This document shows, piece by piece, positions 7,201 to 61,287 of a stretch of DNA of 64,000 bases. Made by a program: the position numbers and the translations under genes. The number at the start of each line of letters is the position of its first letter. Positions within the stretch are counted from its first letter, which is position 1. The notes beneath the pieces are model-generated. The model searched no databases, had not been told where the DNA came from, and saw only the letters and a list, made by a program, of their open reading frames with translations. The stretch covers positions 12,718,735-12,782,734 of the forward strand of contig NC_037593.1 in assembly GCF_003073045.1 (NCBI RefSeq), given 5' to 3'. The DNA comes from Pomacea canaliculata (Eukaryota; Mollusca; Gastropoda; Architaenioglossa; Ampullariidae).

Positions 7201-7630
7201 TTGCAGTTACAGCAGCTGCACTAACCGTCTGTCGCTTGGCTGCCCTGCCCTGCCTGACTCACTCTCTCCTCTGGCTTGTGACTCTCTCTCTGTCCTCCAA
7301 GTTGATGTAACCTCAAGCAAGGGAACGGCTGATGCAAGCTTGTTGATTTTACTTGTAGATACAGGTCAGTGCCTGGTGTGTACTTTGTAAAGGTGGAGCT
7401 GGTAATTCGTCGTCTGTCTTATTAACCTTCTTTCTTCTCTCTCTCTTTGAGTCGCTTTTTCTTTCTGGGTCTTCCTTTGGGTATCCCCCTTTCTCCCTCT
7501 GGGTTCTTCTTATTTCTTCTTCCAAGATCCTCTCACTCTTTGTATCGCCTTTCATGTTCATGTTCTTTCACCGAAACCAGCGAAGCCACAGACGCTCAGT
7601 CTGTCGTTATATCATTACAGAGAGGGAGCC

Positions 7631-10600
7631 ATGGGGCAGCACTTGTCGAGATGGAGCGATGACAGTTACAACAATAACAATAATAGCAATAACAACAATG
7701 TTGCCGTCGTCAATGGCACGAGTCCGGAAAGACACGGAGACTCGCGACGGTCACCTCGCGGACAGCAAAACAAGCGAGTAAATATTCCTTTAGCATATAT
7801 ATATATTTTTTAGTAAATAGCCATTCAGAAAATTTTCTCTATAATAACCATTTAGTTAATACTCTTTTAGTAACATCCTATATTAAATACTATTTTATCA
7901 CCTATTGTGTGTGGAAGGGGGCGTGCGCTACATATATGGCCGAAAGAGGATATTTTGTAACCTTTTAGCATATATTCTAGTTTAGTAACTACTTAGTATT
8001 GATACTCGCTGTTAGTTCCATAACATGAAACACTCGTGTAGCCTGCGAGGGCCGCAGCACATGAAGGAGTTCCAAAACGTGTCAAGAAGGCGTTACTTTG
8101 TCACCTTGCTGCCCCAGTTACGTCACACAGCTGTTTCACTCCACTCCCATAATTTTACTGGAATGTGAAGTTCATCGCCTTGCGCCTCGTGAACAAGAAT
8201 AGGCTGGATAGAGTCATTTAGCTTTGTCTTTTCTTGTGAAAAGTGACGTCGCTTGACTAATCTATGTAACGGACAAGTACTTAGTAGAGGGGGTTAGGAG
8301 GGAAGATCGACAACCGTGGTTGATCTGATTTAGCGTAGTGGGCTGGAAGTTGTTTGCCCTTGAGCAAATGACGTAAACTGGGACGTCAAAATAAGGTGAC
8401 GTAAAAGATGGAGGAAAATAACGTTAGAGAAAAAAACGGAAAGCAGAGAGCAGACGGCGGAACCGAAGTGAGAGCTGGTGGATTTTTCTTGGGACTTTCT
8501 CGCAACTGCTGCGACAGCGGAAAAAAAGTATTACGGGAAGTAATACCGTGGGTAAACTACAGGTGGATGTACTTCACAGGTCGTGAGTCACTGTAGTCCG
8601 TGTTCGCACCGTGGGGGAGCTCTGTGGCTTGGGCATCCCGCAGTACAGTGAAGTACTGGCGTGAGCGAGAAAAACAACGGTCCCAGAACGGAATATGTAT
8701 TACGGGAAGTAATACCGTGGTTAAACTACAGGTGGATGTACTTCACTGGTCGTGAGTCACTGTAGTCCGTGTCCGCACCGTGGGGGAGCTGGAAGGGACA
8801 GTTCTTAACAGCCGGAGAGTAAGCGCCGGTGGAGGAAAGGTTTCCTCCCGGCCTTCAGCTGATCTAACATCATCCGGCCAAACATCTAGGAGGCGGCCGC
8901 ATGCGCAAGACCGAGACGTCTGCTTGTAAACTGTGGTACCGTAAAAACTATTTATTTTCAATAATAAATAGACTTCGTGGAAAGAAGATCAGTGGGACTA
9001 ATTAGAATAGAGGACTTGGGAGGGTCTCAGAGACTTTAATATAAAAGGTTAATGTTTCATCAAGAACGAACATTTTGTTTTATTCTTCATCAGTGACAAT
9101 ATTTTATGAGAGTCGATTTCATTGTTAACTTTAATAGTACGTGGGATGAATGATAACATATTGGTAATATATCTTGTGTGGCGAATGAAGGAGTGAATCT
9201 ATCAGTGTGGATATTTTGCCTTTGTTTCATTTGACATTGTATTTGAATTGAATAATTATTTGTGCCTCTAAGAAGGTACGCCCACCCTCAAGCGATCAGG
9301 ATATTTTGCTTTGTGGAAAGAATGCGCATGTCTGCGGACGGTCCGTGACAATCTAAAACCCATAGATAAACCCCGCATGCCTGCAGTACTAGAGCTTGAT
9401 ACAGCTGCCGAACAGCCATCTTGCTGCTCGTAGTGTTAGATATAAACCGGCATAGAACATGGCGACATTGAAACCTACCTCCTCAGCTGTGAAATCAAAG
9501 AGCAAAAGCTGTTCAAGCAAATAAAATCAATTCATGTTGACAACGTTCGAAAAATACGAAGATACAATGCCAGGAAATCCTAGATACTGACGCATCCTTC
9601 ACTTCCATCATGGCAGTTAGTCGGCTTCCACCACAGCGAAGCATGGGTCTCTTCATAAGACTTAGATAATAGGTGAGCCCCCATAGAACCTAAGAGCACC
9701 TTCGAAGACAAACTGTGAGCCATGTGACGAGCTAAATCTGGGAATTTGTTGTGACCGTCATGCAACAAAAAAAAAAACCCCAAACAAACAAACAAACAAA
9801 CAAACAAATAAACAAAAAACAAAAAACATTGTCATTTGTTTCTACTCTGTCCATCTGTCCATCGCTTTTTGAAATTTAGAGTTAAACATAAATATTTTGA
9901 TTTACAACAGAAACCTGTAAAAAATAACTTTAGTTGAAAGAAAACAGTTGTTTGTAAATACAACTCGATCAGTCTCACAGCGCATGCACTAAACGAAAGC
10001 GGATGTGGTCAGTCTCTGTCCTCAGCGCAAGGCCGTGCTGGATCACAACGTCACGGCTGAGTTCGTTAAAAATGTCGGCTTGTGTTTTCGCAGAAACCGC
10101 ACGTGGTGACAGACGACGACCTGGTGCGAGCCACGCATGACTGTCTGAAGCTCATCAATACCTGGTTTCCCGAGCGATGTTCGCGCACGTACTTCATGCC
10201 ACCTGTGCACATGAACACCGTCAAATACAAGACGTGGCTGGGCGGCGAAGGGACTGCGCATGCGCGGGGTCTGGACGTGCAGGCGGTGCAGGGGACGATG
10301 GAGAGCGACTGGCGGGATGATGAGGTCATGCAGAGGACGCTGCACTGCCTGCGACGCCTGGGTGATTTCTTGAAGGTTCGACACGCCTCAGCGACTACGC
10401 TCTCGCTTGCCTTGCATCTGTCCAAAGACTTTTTTTCTGTATCTTGTCTCGGTCTCTGTAGATGACTGTTGCTTTTTCTGTGTCTCTGTCTCTTTCGTAA
10501 CCCTTTGTATTTTACTGTCACTCTGACATTAAACTTTGTCTCATCTCTCTCATGTCTCTCTAAATGTCTTGCACACTTTTTAGTTTGTCTCTGAAATATC

Positions 10601-13600
10601 TGCGCTATCTGCTTGTTTTTTGTTTTTTTTAAACATTCTGTCGTATAACATCTCCCATCCACCCCACTCCATGGTGTCACCTATTTCTGTCAGTCACTCT
10701 GACATTATCTTTTACGTCTCATCCCATATGATTCTGTCTCACACACATACACATTCTATTGCATTTTTTATCTTTCACGCATTATCTCATTGTCTTTTTT
10801 TTTTCGCCTCCTTTATACATTTTCATGATTCCTTTTCTCTCACACATGCATGTTTATACCCCCTGATATGACAACTCAAGTTTTGCCTGATGCAGGAGCC
10901 GATGGTGGTTATTCTCCAGATGGATCAGGACAACTACCTCAACAAGCCCAGGTATTCAGCTCTGACCTCTAAGTACCCACGTCCTAGCGAACTAACTGAG
11001 AAACTGCGCCGCGGTGACTTTGATCTTCTATTCGTGCACCTGCGGTACGGACTCATTGTCGCCGAGATGAAATCAGTTGGCTGGCGACCAGGTGAGAGGG
11101 ATCGGGTGGTGGGGCTTGGAGTGGTTGGGGTAAACACCTACCGGGCATTTGAGTTAACATGTCCTTAAAACCTTGCTAATAATTCTTTGCATATACCACA
11201 CCTGAAGAACTCTTCCTCGCTGCGTGTTGGGATGCAGATGGAGTTGACATCTTTTGTTAGATTTAGAGAAATTCGTTGAGCCAATAAAATAATAGAGTCG
11301 GTCTGGAAGTAACACAAAGCGCACTCCCCCTTCTTCTGCCCACAGGTCAGCAACAGGATGACGCCACTGTGGCCAAGAAGCTGGAGCTGGCCATCAAGCA
11401 GCTGAAAAAGTCAAAGGAGGTGCTGCAACACCTGGTGTCAGATCTTCGGCCTCAGCCCGCCATTCGCAGGTGCCTAGTGCTGCCCAACGTCAGCAGTCAG
11501 CGCCTGACGCAACTTCTGGATACGAACCCCATCCTGAGCCAGGTGAGCGGATCCCGGGATCTCGCTGAGGATCGTGGGGACGACTGACAGATCCTTCTAC
11601 TAGTGACAGGCTATTCTAGACAAAAGAAAACGAACACACAAAAACATTTTGAAAATATTTACTCAACCTGAACCGCCTACTGATGTGTAGTATGCACCCA
11701 CTTGAACAAATTTCCTTGAATTTTTTTTGTTTTTTTGCGAATTCTGCCATGGTGAATACGTGCAAAGAGCAGCATGGCTGTCACTTCTTTGCCATCTTCT
11801 GCAACGTGTTCACGTGTTGTGTGGCAGAAGGGGCGAATTTGAGTGTTTGTAAGATAATTGAAAATATCCCGGAGGATTTCTTTAAAAAGCCTCGCGGCGG
11901 CTATAGTCATTAGATAGTCACTTATTTTAAACACATGTCTCATAATATTACATTTAAATATTCCATGTTACTACAGGAACTTCGCACTTGTTTCGGAGCA
12001 TCCAGTGTGACAGACGCTGTGTCCCTCTGCCTCTGTTCCGACCTGATGACGTCAAGAGAGCAGCCCGCTGACGTCACAGACGCCATTTTGCAACGCATGC
12101 AGAAATGGTGGAATCGCCTGGTGACTAGTCAGGGAATCGGGGGAGAGGGTACGCCGGAAATTTACGACTATCTTCTGGCCAGGTACTAACGGATAGAGAC
12201 GAAAAGGAAGAAAATGGGTTTTTAAAAATTATTTTAATTATTATTTCATTTCTTGTAATAAACCCGCCTACATGAATTGCATGTTCCGCACTCAAAATAG
12301 TGACGTTTGTCTCCCTAACGTCTCGCATTAACATCACTGTTCTGTGTGACAGATTCTGCGGCCCTGCAAGTACAGTGAAGGTGTACTGCGTGACGTCACC
12401 GAGCCTGGAAATTCGGACGTTGGGTGACGCTGTGTCGGAGACCGGAGAGCGAATGGTGCAGTTCGCACTCTTCCCGGAGCAGCTGGCGCTCTTGGAGGTG
12501 ATATTTTACTTGTCTCAGTGTTGGACTTCCACTGCTTCTAATACATAATTTTACCGTTCACATAAAGCAGAGAACGGCTAGACAAAAATATTTGTAATGT
12601 GTGAACATATCTGTGTATGTCTGTACATGTGTGTGCAAAGGTGTGTGTGTGTGTGGTTATCTTAACCTCGTGCCTGGAAATCCTTTTCGTAGAGTAAGCA
12701 TGCATTTAAAGATCAAAACTAACGCAAGGTCAAAGGTTAGGGGACTGCAAGTTTTAACGTCGCACTATTGAATAAGAACCTCCTTTAAGGGTCACATTAG
12801 ACAGACGGGTACCCTACGCCAGGTGTCATGCAGGTGGCTTATCGAAATATGACGAGCCTTAGATATACCTACATGACAACGTTACAGTATTTCAAGACGA
12901 CGGGCATATAAACGGTCATGGTGGGTGTCAAAATGACAGCAGTGAGCACAGAACTGGTGTTAGCGGCAGTACGCACAGACCTATGTTTAGTCTGTCGATA
13001 TTTTAGGATTTTACTAGCTAAATGTAAGCGGTCTTTGATGCTCTGTTTTATTTTTGTTCTTTCCACTCACAGAGCTCAAACCCCTGCGTTTACTTAACGG
13101 GCCCACCTGGCACAGGTAAAACTCTCATCCTGGTCCTGCGGACCGTGCTGTGGGCGCGCCAGGGTCACGTGGTACACGTGGCCAGCACGGGCTCCTTCAG
13201 TGAGGCAGCCACACAGCTCATTTTTCACCAGGTGAGAAAGCGGGTGCTCGCTGGAATATATATATATAAAACGAGCTCTGGGAAGGGAGGATGGCAAATG
13301 GAGGGGAAGCCATGACGTCATAGACCCTGAACAGGAGAGCTATGACGTCACGATATTGTTTCTCGCGCTAACCTCACGCTGTAATCCTGTAATCCTCGCC
13401 ACGGTTCTGACTCCGTGCTCATGTTGTGAATAGTTTTAACCCGTTGCCGGGCAATAGCTACTTCGTACATTGGCCCTTCAGATGCGACTGTTCAAGGGTC
13501 CAGGTGTTATCTGGCATTGCCCTTGTGGATTAATAAAGTTGTATTGTATTGCACGGCACATCGCTTTTATAATGATGACAACGACAAAGAAGAAGAAATA

Positions 13601-15771
13601 GAGGAATGCTTTAGTTAGCTCGAACACACGGAGGGCGTGCTCTAGATTTTGTGTAACTCCAGGATCACGTGATTTTGTTACAGGCTACTAAGACGCTGGA
13701 GGATATAGACAAAGAGGCTGTCGCCAACGTTCAGCTGCTCCTTAACGGCAACAAGCGCGAGATCGAGTCTGTCGTCACATCCCTCACAGAGTCCTGCCAG
13801 AACGGACAACTCTACGTCATCGCCGACGAGGCGGATGGCATGTTCACGGAGTTTTTTACGAAGCTGAAAAACAACGTGTCCGACCTGCACGTGTGGGCGG
13901 CCTCCTACCACCACCAGCACCGCCCGCCCAACATGGACGAGGAGAGGCTGACGGTGTCGCTGCGCTGCCCCCCAGCTGTCATGCGCCGAGTGGAGACAGC
14001 CGTGTCCTTCACTAACAACGCCATCTACAGGTGCTTCTTGATGGTGAAAATGAAGATGATGTTGATAACAATGATGACTGATCATAATCATGATGATAGT
14101 GAAGAGGAAATATCAGTCTGGGATTTCTTTTGTTTAATTCTCTACACTGTTAAAGAATACAGTTGCTTCCCCTTTCTTTCCTGTGTATTAGGTCTTCATC
14201 GAATTTTTCGTTCATTCATCTTACTAGACCACCGGAAGACTTTAATTACTTACACTTTCCTTGACATGCGTAGTAATGGTAGCAGGGGTAGAGATGGCAT
14301 ATTATTCGCTGAGTTGATTACTGAACACTGGTAATTTCATTCTAGAAGTATGTCTGTGGTCACCTTGTCCTTAAGGAAACTAGTTCAGTTCTAAAACAAA
14401 GGATTTTAAACGATAAAGAATGTTGAAATTTTCTTCGGTGTGATGATAAAGATGAAGATACTCCAAGCTGCTATTAGCTGCCAATTAAAGTAATGCTGAT
14501 GTGAATACATTACACACGGGATTGTTTTAGCTTTGCCAATCAGCCAACATGAACAGTAGAATTGTCACGATTTTAGAAGCCTTCTAGACGATACCGTAGA
14601 TTGACCCCGAGCAACTGATTTCAGTTTTCTAGGAGACATTCAAGTTAAAATGATTTTTTTTTTTTTTTTTTTGCTACGAGAGGCTCAATGTCGATTTCCG
14701 TATCTTTCACTGTTGTACAGCTACGGTTTGCAATGAGTTAGATGTCTGACAAAGTAATGCTGTGTTTGCAGGTTTAACACCACCTTGGATCCGGAGAATA
14801 TTCGCCCTCCTGTGACGGATGGTCCGCCGGAACTGCTCCTCTCTCACCTGGATCACAGTGAGCAGTTCGCAATGAACTGTGAGCAGTGTGGCCTTGACAT
14901 TGGGCATTGCCTTCTAGAGAAGCTGGCAGTCGGTGAGATGCACGACTATTTATGTCTAAACCCGTCAAAGAAGATAAGTTAGCAGTCGGTATAGCTATTT
15001 AAACCTGTCAAAGTAGAGAAGCTGAGACTCAGTAACTCTATGTTAAACTTGTCAAAGAAAATAAGCTAGCTGTCGGTATAGATATTTAAAACTGTCAAAG
15101 AAATAAATTACAAGCACAGAGATGACATGTTCCAGTTATTCGCAGTGTTATAGTCAAAACCAACCAACCAAACAAAAAGACACAAATTAAGACAAATATC
15201 AAATATTAAAATCGTTTGACACTTCAATGAAACAGTATTTTTCTAAACATGACAAGACATCAACATTAGCCCTTAAAACTGACATTTTTACCTGTCGAAT
15301 AACATCTGTTTCAAGAAGTGACTGTTATTTCGAGCTCTACCCCTTCTTAATTGGCTTCTTGCAGGTCAGAAGCAACGGGTAGCAACAATTAAAGCTCCAC
15401 CCGCTCTTCAATACCGAGACATAATGGTGATTCCTGACTGGTATCAGAATGTGGAAGACCTTCATGACGAGGAACGACTTCCATCAGGGGAAGTCACTAA
15501 GGAAGCTTCCGGTATAGTGCGCGGTTTGCGAAAGATGGGACTTCCAGTGATGGTAGTGACCAGCGGCGATCAAGAAGCCATCCAGGATGTGGTCCGCTCG
15601 CTGTCGGACGTCGTAGCAGTGGTCGGGTGGGGGGTGGTCAACGGACTGGAGCGCAAGGTGGTGGTGTCCGTGGGGGAGGGAAGGGAGATGAGCGATGGGA
15701 GCGTCAGTGGGGTCCTGCACGGTGCCTCCCGCTGCACGGCGCAGCTTATTTACGTGAAGTGCCCGGAGTAA
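7631..15771 (+). CDS. Predicted N-myristoylated NERD-like nuclease / SF1-type helicase fusion
   Basis: Ten coding exons: 7631-7777, 10094-10375, 10896-11091, 11346-11542, 11977-12182, 12353-12497, 13073-13231, 13684-14030, 14772-14932 and 15365-15771. Phases agree throughout and give 748 residues. The ATG has a strong context (G at -3 and +4). MGQHLSRW fits an N-myristoylation signal, and an Asn-rich low-complexity tail follows. Residues about 144-230 resemble a NERD/PD-(D/E)XK nuclease: RGDFDLLF (D186), GLIVAEMKS (E200, K202) and a helix with Q227. Residues about 385-748 resemble an SF1-type helicase: Walker A GPPGTGKT (401-408), Walker B LYVIADEAD with DEAD at 492-495, LRCPP, GLERKVVV, and a motif-VI-like ASRCTAQLIYV (R736). 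Exon 1 is joined by phase and splice sites only. The helicase and nuclease calls come from motifs. The substrate is unknown; membrane-tethered nucleic-acid sensing or defence would be speculation. Confidence 0.8.
8528..8790 (+). repeat. Pair of 94-bp direct repeats in intron 1 of the nuclease-helicase gene
   Basis: Copies at 8528-8621 and 8697-8790 are nearly identical (a few substitutions) and start 169 bp apart. Each begins with a small perfect inverted repeat, GTATTAC-GGGAA-GTAATAC. The spacer contains another, CAGTAC-AGTGAA-GTACTG at about 8641-8658. No coding sense is seen. The high identity indicates a recent local duplication. Confidence 0.85.
9768..9830 (+). repeat. A-rich / (CAAA)n low-complexity tract
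   Basis: An A run, then repeated CAAA units and further A-rich sequence lie within intron 1 of the nuclease-helicase gene. It is probably a retroelement-tail-like or slippage-derived microsatellite. Confidence 0.7.
13432..13553 (+). mobile_element. Short non-LTR retroelement tail in intron 7 of the nuclease-helicase gene
   Basis: A moderately GC-rich segment ends in GATTAATAAAGTTGTATTG followed by a partial TATTG repeat, a form typical of 3' ends of LINE or SINE copies in invertebrate genomes. No coding part remains. The family is not identified. Confidence 0.4.
14926..15105 (+). repeat. Four-unit minisatellite that starts at a splice donor
   Basis: Imperfect units of about 43-56 bp follow one another, with starts near 14926, 14982, 15021 and 15069. 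The shared core is GAGAAGCTGGCAGTCGGTATAG, then a TATTTAAAC-CTGTCAAAGAA section (core given in parts). The first unit contains the end of coding exon 9 and its donor (GCAGTCG|GTGAG), so the array grew out of the exon-intron junction. Units 2 and 4 keep a GTCGGTATAG version of the junction. Confidence 0.7.
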
Positions 15772-17952: not shown

Positions 17953-18018
<66 letters not shown>

Positions 18019-28074: not shown

Positions 28075-28345
28075 TTGTTGTCATTCCATTGCAACCTTTT
28101 TTTGGACTTTGTCAAATGCAGTTGACAAGTCTAACAAAGCAAGAAATGACACTTTTTCATCGTTATCACTAAGGAGCGAATCGTTTACGACCTTAAGAAG
28201 TACAGATTCAGTACCTGGACCTTTCCTATAAACCGTCTCGAACGGATTAAGATGTTTTTGCTCCACATGTACACTGAGTTTCGAAAGAACAATCTTTTCC
28301 AGAACTTTGGACAGAACGGACACAATTATATCCCCTACATGTCGC
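28075..28345 (-). mobile_element. LINE fragment, reverse transcriptase N-terminal part (CR1/Rex1-like)
   Basis: On the minus strand an 80-residue frame reads ISVLSKVLEKIVLSKL, PFETVYRKGPGTESVLLKVV and FLALLDLSTAFDKV, the conserved RT segment that usually reads SKVLE...QSAYR..HSTETALLRV...LLDLSAAFD. Only this part of the RT is visible, without endonuclease, catalytic YADD box or 3' end. It is an old, truncated insertion. Confidence 0.8.
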
Positions 28346-28645
28346 CAACCTAAGGGTGGGTCACAGTTTCCGGAAAACCCAATTCACTCTAGCTTTGCAT
28401 CAACAAACCAAACTACATAAATCCATCACAGCAGCAAATCAACCAGCGAAATAAGAGCACCTTCCCCCTCACCATCATATCTCCCATCTTCCATCCTCCC
28501 CCTCCCACGCGCGCTCAGAGCTGTCGGCGTTATTGTCGGGCGAAGATAGTTACTTGTCACCTCATACCTGAAATCAACAGCCGCGATATTAATTTGAAAA
28601 GCGATCGCGCTGCTTGGCCTGTCACCTCCTTCTGAGCCCAGCAAC

Positions 28646-38000: not shown

Positions 38001-38958
38001 CTTTTTTTTCATCGCATCGAACTTGGCCATTGTCCCATCCACACGTTAGACTCCATGAGGAAACATTCCGACGCCATAGTCTTAACCATTCCGCTATTGA
38101 GTGCCATTGGACTGCATTTACTTATCCAGTACTGATATATTTCTTTAAAGACAGTTTAGTTTGAAATTTGTTTTCTTTGCCATTTTTTTTTTTCTTGTAC
38201 GTTGGATATGAATACTAAAGGGATACTTTCTTGTTGACTGACAGGAATCACAGGCTACAACTGCGATCCACACGCCGTTGCCATGGATTACCGCTACGTT
38301 GGCTTCCGGGAATGTGCAGCGGAAGTTGCGCGCTATCCTGGTGGCCGTGGAGGGCTTGGACCTGCAAGACCCCTTACGCATGCGCCTTCTGAGCCACCTT
38401 CAGTGCTACTCGGCGCAGCGCGAGGCCGCCGCCAAAGCCACCCTGCAGCCTGTGCCTCCCGCCTGGCCCCCGGCTCCGCCCGCCATGCATCCAGTGCCCG
38501 TGCCCTCCTTCAACGCGCAGTACGGCGCCATGGTGCCCACGGGCGGGCAGGCCTCCAGCACGCAGGGCACAGACGCCCACTCCGTCATGACATCGCACGC
38601 GGCGTCGTCGTCCTCGGCCTCCTCCGTGCTGAACGTTTTCAGCGACTCGCGCCACATGGCGGGCGACGCCAGCGGCGGCCTGGGTTCCCTGACCGCACAC
38701 CACGCCCGCGGTGGACCAGCCGTAGCCATGACGACAACCTCCTCGGCAGCCGCCTCGCAGCCGCAGGCCATGTCACCGCCGCTGATCCACTCCCTGCCGC
38801 AGTTCCACGCTTCGCAGTTTCCGCCGCAGAGCATCATGCCTTCCGCGTCGCACGCGCCCTACTCACACGCTCACTCCGCGCATGCGCAGAGCGCCGGCCT
38901 TCATCCTTCCGCTAGCGTCAAGCCGTACCGACCATGGGGCGGGGAGCTGGCCTACTGA
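35047..38958 (+). CDS. Hey: Hey-family bHLH-Orange transcriptional repressor, with an apparent +1 frameshift
   Basis: Exons: 35047-35111, 35840-35888, 36135-36218, 37121-37193 and 38245-38958 (TGA). The basic region [17 protein letters not shown] has the Gly that separates Hey from the Pro-bearing HES proteins. The bHLH runs through VPSAFEKQ and [16 protein letters not shown]. The Orange domain reads [19 protein letters not shown], then changes frame and continues [18 protein letters not shown]. The C-terminus has the Hey signature YRPW in [12 protein letters not shown]. Coding length is 985 nt, one over a multiple of three. The extra base is a C at about 38337-38338 (TATCCTGG where TATCTGG is expected). 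With one base fewer the length would be 327 residues, in the family range. Without the shift, the other frame stays open to 38915 as an Arg-rich tail lacking YRPW. Hey proteins are nuclear Notch effectors that bind E-boxes as dimers. The cause (assembly error, allele or real lesion) cannot be decided here. Confidence 0.93.
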
Positions 38959-43022: not shown

Positions 43023-43848
43023 TTAATGTTGTGGCTGGCGGCGAAGGCCTATAAGAGTGCCGTCTGCTTCCAGAAGAGTTATATGCTTGTTGGATCCAAG
43101 GAAGCTTGAGGACATTTCCAGATCATTCACTTGCACCTTAACCTTTGTGCCTCGATGGTAACGCCTGAAGGAAAGCAATAAATTGGTGAGAGTGCTTTGA
43201 GAATAACTACACCCTCACAAGTATACCACCATACAATAAGATGGGAACAACTCTAGGAATGCTCACAACACAATGATATAAGTTGTTATGGACGACATGG
43301 CATGCAACCGTGAATCAGAAAAAGATAAACTTAACCCTAACCCAATTTCTAAAGTTGTGATAATATATGATCTGTAGCATATATTACTTCTAGACTTACT
43401 CTGCGTTTAACTTGGGACGTGGACACACGCAATGAAATTTTCCACCGATATCGATGTAAAGGTCATCGCCCACAACCTCAATAACTGTTCCAGCCACCGT
43501 CCTCCCTGCAATGTCACCAAGCTGCATCAGCTTGCTGTGACGTAGCATAGCAGCAAATGTTGTGTGTTCTGTTTTAACAATGTCATCTTCGTTATCGACA
43601 TTTGCCTCTATACTCTGGCTGCGAGCTTTCTCCAGAACCCTCGCAAACCCAGCCAACGCTGTTTCTCCTGTACTTTTTGGGGCATTCTTATTGCTTAGCG
43701 AAGGCTCAGAACTTTCGGATGCATATTCTTGATTAGTATTATTTAACCTTTGACCAACAGAGAGATGCCGTGACTCTTTAGGAGCTAAACTTTTGTAAAC
43801 GAAGACACAGTTTCTAGCAGCACATCGTACCCACAAGGGCGCAGCCAT
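43023..43848 (-). CDS. MRPS28: Mitochondrial small ribosomal subunit protein bS1m (MRPS28)
   Basis: Two coding exons on the minus strand, 43848-43400 and 43164-43023 (TAA), joined in phase 2 with GT-AG borders, give 196 residues (human 187). The ATG at 43848 follows an A-rich leader with A at -3 and G at +4. An in-frame TTG 15 nt upstream is not a plausible start. The N-terminus MAAPLWVRCAARNCVF is basic and hydrophobic, as expected for mitochondrial import. The conserved part is an S1-like domain: GDIAGRTVAGTVIEVV, DDLYIDIGGKFHCV and NDLEMSSSFLGSNKHITLLEAD. The last matches the vertebrate DLEM-ASFLG-...-LEA signature. The product is a structural protein of the mitoribosome small subunit. It shares a 180-bp head-to-head promoter region with HDDC2. 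Confidence 0.93.
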
Positions 43849-44028
43849 GTTTTTTCTTTCCAAACGACCAATGAAATGTCTCGAAACTCCAGACGTCAGC
43901 CAAATGTAATTTTAAACAGAGAAGAGCGTCTCAGTGACGCGTGCACCACTATGCTCGCTAGTTGATTATAATTATTATAAGTGTTTTGAATTAAAAAAGT
44001 GCCAAACACTCACTGTTAGAGTAGGATA
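43849..44028. promoter_or_regulatory. Bidirectional MRPS28-HDDC2 promoter region
   Basis: Only 180 bp separate the divergent start codons. The stretch contains a CCAAT box at 43868-43872, an ACGTCA half-CRE at about 43891 and TGACGCG near 43934. No TATA box stands out. Two housekeeping genes sharing a short divergent promoter is a common animal arrangement. Confidence 0.6.
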
Positions 44029-46938
44029 ATGTCTCTGAATTCAGCGAATGTGTTTAAATACATGACATTGATTGGAAAGCTTAAGGTCTCTGCTAGAAAA
44101 TAAAAACGACTACATTACTGATAATAATTATTACCTGCAGCATTCATTATCTATATCAACGTTATCGCTGTTTATTTGTATACTAGTCCCAAGTGACAAG
44201 TCTGTTAGGTTATCTAGTTATTAGTTTCACATACGTGAAAGTTGATTCACTCGATAAATAGTCTATGATTAACTATGGTCACTTTTGTTTAGATAACAGG
44301 CAGAATATACTTGAAACCCATAAGGTTATAGTATTTTCATATGTGGCAGCGAGTACAGCGAACAGGATGGGTTCGCAAAGGTGTGAAAAGACCAGAAAGT
44401 GTCGCAGACCACATGTACCGCATGGCAATGATGGCGATGTTGGCGCCTCCTGGGTTGGACGTAAATAAGTAAGTTTACAATTAGCTACTTTGAGAAAAAA
44501 AAATTCACAAAGGCTTTCATGCTGGCATACATGTAGACTTCAGTGTACCAAAGTATATATATATATTTGTTTACTTCATTTTATCTGACTATGATGATAC
44601 TGTAATGTCAGTATAGGTATAACTGTTATTGTCTTTTCTCCCATGTGTTAGTAAGGCAAATAAAAGATTTAAAAAAAATGTAAGATCAAGGAAACATGTT
44701 TTTTGACAGATGCATCAAGATGGCCTTAGTTCATGACATGGCAGAATGCATTGTGGGGGATCTGACACCTCATGATAGCATAACCAAGGAAGAAAAGCAC
44801 AAAGCTGAAGAGGTTGCTAATGTTTTGCTTTCTTGTCATTCAGAAAAATTAAGCTAAGTGTGTACATCAGTCTACATGCACAAGTTTGTTGCTTATGAAC
44901 AGCAAGCTAAAGGTATGCCATCTTTCTCAGAAAACAGCTGTGAGGAAGTGAGGTGGAAGAGAAGGGGTATTGGTATTTGACTCTGAGCAAGCAACTAAGG
45001 CTATATCATGGCAAAGCAGCCATTTCTGTACAGTATATGCCACATTCAAAGCAAAGAAAGAAGTGTGCCTGAGACAAGCTGTGAACAAACTCTGATGGCC
45101 AATTCTTATAGTATTGGTGACAGGCACTGTCACCCCACCAGACTTCCCTGAAAGCAGGTGTGGGTCAATGTGCAGGAAGTAATAAATACAAATAAGCTGG
45201 TTAACATATCTACAGCATTTTGAAAATACCTCTCATGCTTTTCCTTTTGTAGCAACTTGAACTGACTATCAACATATTTCTATTTCTTTACATACTACAC
45301 ACACACATATATATATATACACTTGTTGTTATGAATGCACAGTACATTTTCTGGCTGTTTTCTTTATTGGTCAAAAGAATTGCTGGGAGTCAAGTAATAG
45401 AGCTGTTTTTTACAGTTTTATTTACAGGCCATAGGTTTAGAAAATGCTTTACCACTGTGAACAAAGGATTAAAAAAAAAGCGTGTGTAGTAAATTGTATA
45501 GGTGTGGGATGTGACTTTATTTTGTTTAGTTTATTACTTATTACAGCTTCCAGCAAAGGACATTTTTTAAAAATCTGAACAGAAAATGTGAACAGAAGTA
45601 GACAGAAAAGATATATAGTAAAAGAACAAAGTAATTTTGTTTTTGTTAAAAGGCAGCAATGAAAGAAATGTGCACACTTGTAGGAGACGGAACTGGTGAC
45701 CAGCTCCTGGCATTATGGCAGGTTTGTTACAACACTTCTTTTGCATGTGTGTATGCCTCTGTTTATGTGTAACCATGTGTACACAGCATTCATGCACATG
45801 CATGTGTGAGAGAAAGAGTGGGAGGAAAAGGCAATGTATACAAAGTGGCAGTTTTGTAATATGTAGACATTATATTCCTTTTCACTGATTTCCAGGACTA
45901 TGAAGAACAGGTTTCAGAAGAGGCAAAATTTGTGAAAGATCTGGACAAACTGGACATGGTGATGCAGGCCTATGAATATGAACAGCTAGAGGAACGACCA
46001 AAATTTCTTCAAGAGTTCTTTGACTCCACAGAAGGTGAGGACAGGCTTTATTTTTTCTTGAAAGTGTTAGAGAAGTACTCATTTGATGTTTTCCCAGTGC
46101 TATTTAAAAAAAAGTATGGCAAATCCATTATGGAGGTTTTGTGCAATTGTTTACTCACTTATGCTTGTTGTTAAGGGAGATTTTCTGTAAGAAGTTATCA
46201 CATGCTTTATAGGTGTCAATGATGGATGGCAATGTTAAACACTTGCACCAATCCAATTTTGAAAAATAATAGGAATTTTAATCTAAGATGATTGAAATTA
46301 GACCGGAAGTTGGCTTACCAATTTACTTAATAATTTGTATGTAAAAGTACTCATTTGCCATAAATTTCTGACTATAAGCCACAATATTTCCCTCCGGTTT
46401 TAAACCCTGCGGCTTATACAGTGATGCGGCTTGTTTGCAGATTTTTTAGATTACTATTAATTTTTCGATGAGCTTTGTGTTAATTTGTTAATTGTTAACT
46501 GTTCACATTCTTAAATTAAAGCTGCATACAATTGAAGCATTCAGATCAGTTGCTGGACCACACACCCTTATCATGCTGATAACAAGACGATATGGCTGTG
46601 ATGTAACTTTAAAGTTGTATTTATCTCCAGCTTATAAACCAGTTCAGCTTGTGTAAAATGTAGAGTTTAAAAAAAAATTAATGGCTGTGACTTATATACA
46701 GGTGTGCTCAACAAGTAAGCTTAATAAGAAATAATGTTCTTTACAAGATAGATTCTCTACTTTTCTTTTTTGTATTTTGTGGTGTTTACTGGCATATTGG
46801 TTTTGCCGTTTCTTCATACTCTTAGGAAAGTTTGTCACAGACACTGGGTGTGCCTGGAAGGAGCATCTGGATGCCTTACGAAAAAATAATGTGCAAAATT
46901 TGTTCAGTGATACAGAACTTCCTAACCAGAAGACGTGA
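44029..46938 (+). CDS. HDDC2: HD domain-containing protein 2 (5'-deoxynucleotidase HDDC2-like)
   Basis: Six exons: 44029-44085, 44350-44468, 44710-44812, 45653-45721, 45896-46034 and 46826-46938 (TGA). Phases agree and give 199 residues (human about 204). The short first exon MSLNSANVFKYMTLIGKLK precedes RVQRTGWV..KGVKRPESVADHMYRM. The donor AAG|GTCTCT of exon 1 is weak, but the joined sequence matches the family. HD-fold metal ligands are visible: H40 in ADHMYRM, H67-D68 in LVHDMAE and a downstream Asp in VKDLDKLDM (about D133). EYEQLEERPKFLQEFFDST is a family hallmark. Members resemble bacterial YfbR and hydrolyse deoxynucleoside 5'-monophosphates. Introns carry a SINE (44.94-45.15 kb) and a MITE-like element (46.37-46.70 kb). 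Confidence 0.93.
44938..45150 (-). mobile_element. tRNA-derived SINE, copy A (HDDC2 intron 3)
   Basis: This segment is collinear with the one at 51139-51338. Both share AAGGCTATATCAT..CAAA.CAGCC, then GTGCC..AGACAAG..., GTATTGGTG.CAG.C..T and ACCAGAC, in the same order and spacing. In copy B the right end on the minus strand is tRNA-like with A- and B-box sequences. In this copy the tRNA-like part is more degraded. It lies in the minus orientation. Confidence 0.65.
46368..46701. mobile_element. Degenerate MITE-like DNA element (HDDC2 intron 5)
   Basis: The left end CTGACTATAAGCCACA and the reverse complement of the right end, CTGTATATAAGTCACAG, match at most positions. They form imperfect terminal inverted repeats about 334 bp apart. 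Internal copies of the phrase GCGGCTTATAC resemble a widely spread non-autonomous family with GACTTATAG-type ends. No coding capacity remains. The family was not determined. Confidence 0.45.

Positions 46939-48674: not shown

Positions 48675-61287
<12,613 letters not shown>

Follow-up and report, generated by a model that had tools for sequence, protein, structure and literature searches.

A very large family of predicted NERD-type nucleases joined to SF1-type helicases in the snail Pomacea canaliculata, with a possible role in nucleic-acid defence

NERD domains, which are PD-(D/E)XK nucleases, frequently occur joined to helicases in the defence systems of bacteria; superfamily 1 (SF1) motors translocate on single strands. 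Here we describe an animal gene that appears to combine the two, at positions 7631-15771 on the forward strand of a 64-kb stretch of the Pomacea canaliculata genome (C4:12718735-12782734; the genome has 440,159,624 bases in 24 contigs). We call the whole stretch the window and use its coordinates throughout. Sequence comparison places the window gene, as a divergent member, in a very large family, and we favour, with moderate confidence, the reading that this family encodes ATP-driven NERD nucleases with an SF1 motor and was amplified for intracellular nucleic-acid defence.

A first-pass annotation of the window had proposed a ten-exon gene for a 748-residue nuclease-helicase. When we rebuilt this model, we found that all nine introns have GT..AG ends, that the phases agree and that the coding sequence of 2247 nt contains no inner stop; gene model and motifs are confirmed, as predictions, in the form first described. 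Predicted exon 1 (7631-7777, residues 1-49) holds an MGQHLS start, an Asn repeat and a basic tail, closes with a GT donor in phase 0 and has no match in Pfam. Exon 2 (10094-10375, residues 50-143) encodes an N-terminal domain with a Glu-bearing helix ahead of the nuclease core. The D-x13-E-x-K core and trailing Gln helix that had been noticed are present as D186, E200 and K202 in exon 3 (10896-11091; core at 11022-11072) and as QLKK within the KQLKK helix (11396-11410) of exon 4 (11346-11542), where the putative nuclease domain ends. Exon 5 (11977-12182, 206 bp) encodes part of a linker domain of unassigned fold; it is the region of lowest nonsynonymous divergence (dN) and served as our search probe. 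Exon 6 (12353-12497) encodes the segment preceding Walker A. The GPPGTGKT, DEAD-type Walker B and SF1-like C-terminal motifs were likewise all located: Walker A (residues 401-408, 13100-13123) and motif Ia in exon 7 (13073-13231); Walker B as ADEAD (residues 491-495, 13822-13836), motif III as AASYHHQ and motif IV as LRCPP (13960-13974) in exon 8 (13684-14030); and motif V as GLERK (15643-15657) and motif VI as SRCTAQL (15727-15747) in exon 10 (15365-15771), which encodes the presumed second RecA-like half and carries the stop codon. Exon 9 (14772-14932) contributes a CxxC pair (14878-14889). A splice-aware protein-to-DNA alignment returned identical exons, a result that tests the aligner more than the model, and a family profile gave differing boundaries for exons 9 and 10 of the window gene; we retained the simpler model. 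No second copy of the gene was found inside the 64-kb window.

To count relatives, we searched the genome with two exon-5 peptides. With the peptide of the window gene, all 150 scored matches (the best 150 of 349) are stop-free, and the 149 other than the window gene itself have expectation (E) values of 1.8e-10 to 2.1e-6 and 27-48% identity. With a mixed peptide from the main cluster, all 150 scored matches (the best 150 of 419) are also stop-free, with 79-97% identity and a last E value of 5.4e-33. Together the searches give 196 distinct exon-5 places including the window, a lower bound because the best 150 candidates per query were scored. The first-pass annotation had asked for a survey of copy number across molluscs; for the one animal genome covered, that of P. 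canaliculata, the answer is at least 196 exon-5 places. These are places matched by exon 5, and 24 paralogue regions of 10 kb (20 and a further 4, identified below by L numbers) were read as genes, some of the models ending at the region border. Exon 5 is exactly 206 bp long in 19 of the 24 paralogues, as in the window. Because exon 5 has matches genome-wide, because its exact length recurs and because the helicase residues are conserved, the gene model is more than a chance arrangement of open frames. The number of core exons differs within the family, with nine (exons 2-10) in the window gene as compared to six in L018 and L028.

The exon-5 places are strongly clustered. Scaffolds C11, C14 and C7 carry 118, 35 and 21 of them (174 of 196), and the other 22 are spread across seven scaffolds. 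The distance to a scaffold end is less than 2.5 Mb for 30 of the 35 places on C14, 61 of the 118 on C11 and none of the 21 on C7; the median spacing in the C11 clusters is 26 kb (first 150 places). Copies on ten scaffolds, some clustered and some single, are what might be seen if a mobile element had taken up the gene, introns included, and the copies were its cargo or its remnants. However, when we compared ten paralogue pairs at the DNA level over 10-kb regions, the five pairs between scaffolds matched mainly on exons and had no evident shared outer boundary within those regions, and the frames are open in the scored exon-5 matches. In close pairs on one scaffold, intron sequence is also common to both copies. 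Since introns are kept, the copies are not retrocopies. On the pairwise comparison of these ten pairs we do not favour mobile-element cargo, and we consider it very unlikely.

The assignment of an animal NERD-like nuclease joined to an SF1-type helicase is supported, and profile scores make a stronger case with the paralogues than with the window protein alone. The first-pass annotation had suggested profile searches with Pfam NERD (PF08378) and AAA models as a check; the window protein stays below the cut-offs, and two of four single paralogue nuclease pieces exceed the NERD gathering score of 22.1 bits (L028 at 25.8 and L016 at 23.1, as compared to 20.9 for L017 and 18.5 for L022). We also aligned the window protein with 10 of the first 20 paralogues, picked for clean models and 35-39% identical to it (alignment A1, n = 11), and found a NERD match at E ≤ 1 in 7 of the 11 members, the best at 1e-4. 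The sub-threshold match of the window protein spans residues 181-255, the site of the D-x13-E-x-K core. Of the 24 paralogues, 19 keep the complete D, E and K set of the nuclease and 23 keep the Gln. The nuclease piece had no match among PDB sequences.

In the helicase part, motifs I, II, III, IV, V and VI occur in order with the catalytic K, E, R and R, the arrangement by which we call it SF1-type; the names of motifs IV, V and VI come from inspection and conservation, the profiles matching the first RecA half only. AAA_30 matches all 11 members of A1 at E ≤ 1, and the window protein has sub-cut-off Pfam matches to AAA_19 (3.5e-5) and SLFN-g3_helicase (0.11). In paralogues with a letter at the position, the checked helicase residues are invariant except for the motif-V Arg (18 of 19) and the Walker-A Thr (20 of 22). 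The Walker A K, Walker B E, motif IV R and motif VI R occur together in 17 of 19 full-length models, the exceptions being L009 and L020, and the CxxC pair of exon 9 is kept in 21 of 21 paralogues with letters there. Over the CxxC region, PDB matches to the C2H2 zinc fingers of Ikaros, Eos and Helios (E 0.19-0.64) were treated as chance.

To describe how the family evolves, we calculated ratios of nonsynonymous to synonymous divergence (dN/dS). In the 18 closest pairs dN/dS is 0.52-0.79, and pooled over 128 pairs with dS below 0.8 it is 0.44. The two stretches that follow Walker B have the highest regional ratios (0.54 and 0.59); the linker (0.36) and the N-terminal and nuclease portion (0.37) have the lowest. 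These values indicate fast evolution under constraint and are no proof of positive selection. Bins of 20 codons in which the corresponding ratio of proportions (pN/pS) exceeds 1 do exist, with few changes behind them, and we do not claim positive selection. The same values bear on the alternative that the family has no immune role, works in the everyday metabolism of nucleic acids, such as repair, decay of RNA or tolerance of stress, and was amplified by drift or for dosage. DNA2-like nuclease-helicases act in repair, the helicase residues are strongly constrained and every regional dN/dS is below 1. The genome paper also lists replication and repair as functions of groups that are expanded in P. 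canaliculata and L. fortunei alike (PMC6129957). In contrast, at least 196 places, the ratios of 0.52-0.79 in close copies and a proportion of 5 in 24 paralogues that lack a nuclease residue would be unusual for housekeeping enzymes, and we regard this alternative as rather unlikely.

Many paralogues have two further conserved exons upstream of the core. When four peptides of the second upstream exon were compared with KH_1 (PF00013), all four scored above the cut-off of 21.5 bits (24.1, 25.5, 28.4 and 32.3), and so did all three peptides of the joined upstream exons (21.7, 24.0 and 26.8). The match is limited to profile positions 22-66, and the GXXG loop expected at the exon junction was not recognised, so that nucleic-acid binding by this KH domain is putative. 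A custom profile identified KH exons in 10 regions among the first 20, and seven of the ten had supplied its training rows. When we searched the genome with one KH exon, 149 of the 150 scored matches (the best 150 of 219) were stop-free, and 101 of the 150 lie 0.3-9 kb upstream of an exon-5 place on the same strand. At least 100 of the 196 exon-5 places thus counted have a KH exon upstream; for the first 150 places the number is 76, as compared to a mean of 13 and a maximum of 20 in 200 position-shifted controls. The other 49 KH-exon matches (for example C13:15338920) have no exon-5 place 0.3-9 kb downstream among the exon-5 matches scored, and may be family members that were not scored, exons that stand alone or parts of a different KH family. 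In the window, no KH exon was found with the custom profile in the frames of both strands, where a diverged KH is possible, and the seven intron-1 frames of the window gene gave no KH match in Pfam. By these searches the window gene is without a detectable KH domain, unlike many of its relatives.

To place the window gene in the family, we built a midpoint-rooted tree of it and 23 of the 24 paralogues (24 rows; L034 was too short). The tree joins the window gene to L017 and L020 (support 98/94) and leaves it out of a separate group of 19 (96/99); the branch of the window gene has a length of 1.67. Given the long branch and the arbitrary midpoint root, "older lineage" is a tentative description of it. 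The KH label is scattered on the tree with 6 changes, a number as low in 44 of 500 shuffled labelings, so that it is scarcely more clustered than chance labels would be; L035 was counted as KH-less here, and the later genome search shows a KH exon within its region. The scatter may come from gain and loss of KH or from KH exons that were missed.

Set beside the established biology of NERD domains and SF1 motors, the number of copies, their clustering and diversification, and the presence of a KH module make intracellular defence by degradation of nucleic acid the best reading of this family. A nucleic-acid defence role is plausible, and family size, clustering and fast evolution fit it. In the mechanism that we propose, the conserved linker would connect a PD-(D/E)XK nuclease of NERD type with an SF1-type helicase or translocase that bears a CxxC insert. 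RNA or DNA would be recognised or tethered by the KH or N-terminal part, presumably in the cytosol; the SF1 motor would travel along the bound nucleic acid and the nuclease would cut it. Amplification and diversification of the family would have given the cell an internal protection from viruses or mobile elements. A bolder version is possible, and we put it forward tentatively: an arsenal of two hundred or more KH-NERD-SF1 enzymes in apple snails, an animal counterpart of bacterial NERD-helicase defence that diversifies in clusters partly near scaffold ends, may recognise viral or transposon nucleic acid directly and destroy it, with the window gene as a surviving older, KH-less lineage.

Several results weigh against the defence reading and the domain assignments on which it draws. 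The window protein matches Pfam NERD at E 0.12 and 13.4 bits, below the gathering score, and AAA_30 at E 6.7e-6, 0.6 bit below the cut-off; the helicase profiles match the P-loop half only, and structure prediction of exon 10 alone gave a mean predicted local distance difference test (pLDDT) score of 38.9. Among PADLOC models, those of other families (MkoA in 8 of 11 members, best E 1.1e-4; mad8 in 9 of 11, 2.5e-4; typeIV_DinG in 6 of 11, 6.5e-4) match more strongly than "NERD+UvrD" (3 of 11, best 0.0058) and RTasNERD-Hel (1 of 11, 0.02), although these weak matches, to models that share the snail architecture, speak for the assignment. A scan of the genome contig collection with the window protein and with A1 found no relatives. 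Within the family, 17 of the 24 models are stop-free and the remaining 7 contain one to four stops, some of which may be modelling errors, and at least one nuclease residue is missing in 5 of the 24 (L019, L021, L026, L027 and L035). The dN/dS ratio is at most 0.59 in every region, and decay may raise it, because the pairs include models with stops or lost nuclease residues.

As an observation in its own right, the five paralogues with a missing nuclease residue keep their helicase residues where these are readable. They could be nuclease-dead members or decaying copies.

The first-pass annotation had further proposed an N-myristoyl membrane anchor, and this part did not hold up for the family. 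The window protein could be N-myristoylated and act at membranes: MGQHLSR fits the PROSITE N-myristoylation pattern, the ATG stands in a context (gagccATGG) that is good by the Kozak consensus, and exon 1 closes with a basic stretch. However, the pattern is loose, the start at 7631 is predicted only, and Gly-2 is absent from all four paralogues in which a candidate first exon, a short conserved segment, is visible. These read MSGPPSS (L011), MSGHPSS (L033), MAAHPSS (L018) and MSAHPSS (L036), and since the candidate starts are M-S/A, Gly-2 is not a general trait of the family. An upstream ATGGGG that fits the pattern is found in L011 alone; that ATG is absent from L018, L033 and L036. In the window, a possible splice acceptor (..ATTACAG) ends at 7620, 10 bp ahead of the predicted ATG, so that an upstream exon is possible. 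On the paralogue N-termini we reject a membrane anchor as a family trait; MGQHLS can characterise no more than some members, and we think it improbable that the window protein acts at membranes in this way.

The window contains other features. Upstream of the nuclease-helicase, on the same strand, two frames (435-923 and 1810-2163) match adjoining parts of PF09412 at 73.9 and 69.5 bits and indicate an XendoU-type endoribonuclease gene. A perfect ATC repeat of 22 units lies at 17953-18018. On the reverse strand there are a reverse-transcriptase fragment at 28084-28383 (RVT_1, 23.1 of 29.6 bits, below the cut-off) and an exon of a mitochondrial ribosomal protein at 43399-43911 (Pfam MRP-S35, 72.5 bits). 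On the forward strand, the frame at 38242-38955 has a Hairy_orange match below the cut-off (18.4 of 25.3 bits) and, near its end, a KPYRPW stretch reminiscent of HEY transcription factors, and an exon with an HD_3 domain (33.6 bits) lies at 45860-46171. Several reverse-strand frames at about 48986-59916 resemble a PRPF6-type splicing factor; the sole frame tested there, 48986-49312, had no Pfam match at E ≤ 0.01.

We also searched for relatives elsewhere. The window protein had no match among viral contigs, and with A1 four viral matches were found among the best 600 candidates, at 34% identity and spanning the part of the query around Walker A (residues 312-375). The 12 plasmid matches listed of 38 have E values of at least 2, no NCBIfam model matched near its cut-off, and the PDB sequence search with the window protein and family gave P-loop or chance matches only. 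Among the papers listed by a literature search that reached few subscription journals, none describes such a family, and the main text of the P. canaliculata genome paper contains no words beginning with helicase or nuclease (PMC6129957). The novelty of the family is provisional, one animal genome having been covered. If the reading is right, an animal NERD-helicase with KH domains in some 200 copies would mean, in our judgement, that one animal genome carries a strikingly expanded nuclease family, and would offer a testable candidate for mollusc defence against viruses and mobile DNA. Molluscs are not known to have antibodies. The nematode Angiostrongylus cantonensis uses P. canaliculata as an intermediate host (PMC6129957).

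Among known systems, DNA2 and other eukaryotic PD-(D/E)XK-SF1 helicases have the same two activities in one polypeptide; no DNA2 chain was among the PDB matches listed, in which the only helicase chains were PIF1 (E 0.66-1.2). Nhi, a PADLOC system of bacterial immunity, likewise has a nuclease and helicase in one chain. The window protein matches it weakly (E 0.044-0.048); the match extends over some 50 residues that surround the P-loop and occurs in one of the 11 members. The Schlafens also combine a nuclease and an SF1 motor in an expanded, fast-evolving family, and 10 of the 11 snail members give a weak match (E ≤ 1, best 7.1e-4) of the helicase region to the SLFN-g3_helicase profile of Schlafen group 3 (PF09848). 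In contrast to Schlafens, five snail scores are 12.2-18.8 of the 24 bits needed and cover the P-loop end only (at most positions 4-93 of 354), no Schlafen core or nuclease domain was among the matches listed, and the snail nuclease is predicted to be of NERD type; on these matches we do not assign the family to Schlafen group 3. A further likeness is to the bacterial fusions of NERD (PF08378) with UvrD-like helicases (PADLOC C3a187 "NERD+UvrD" and RTasNERD-Hel), which share with the predicted snail proteins a D..ExK core, a Gln helix and an SF1-type helicase in one chain. Unlike these bacterial NERD-helicases, the snail family is intron-rich and has a linker of about 100 residues between nuclease and motor, a CxxC insert in the motor and, in many copies, a KH domain.

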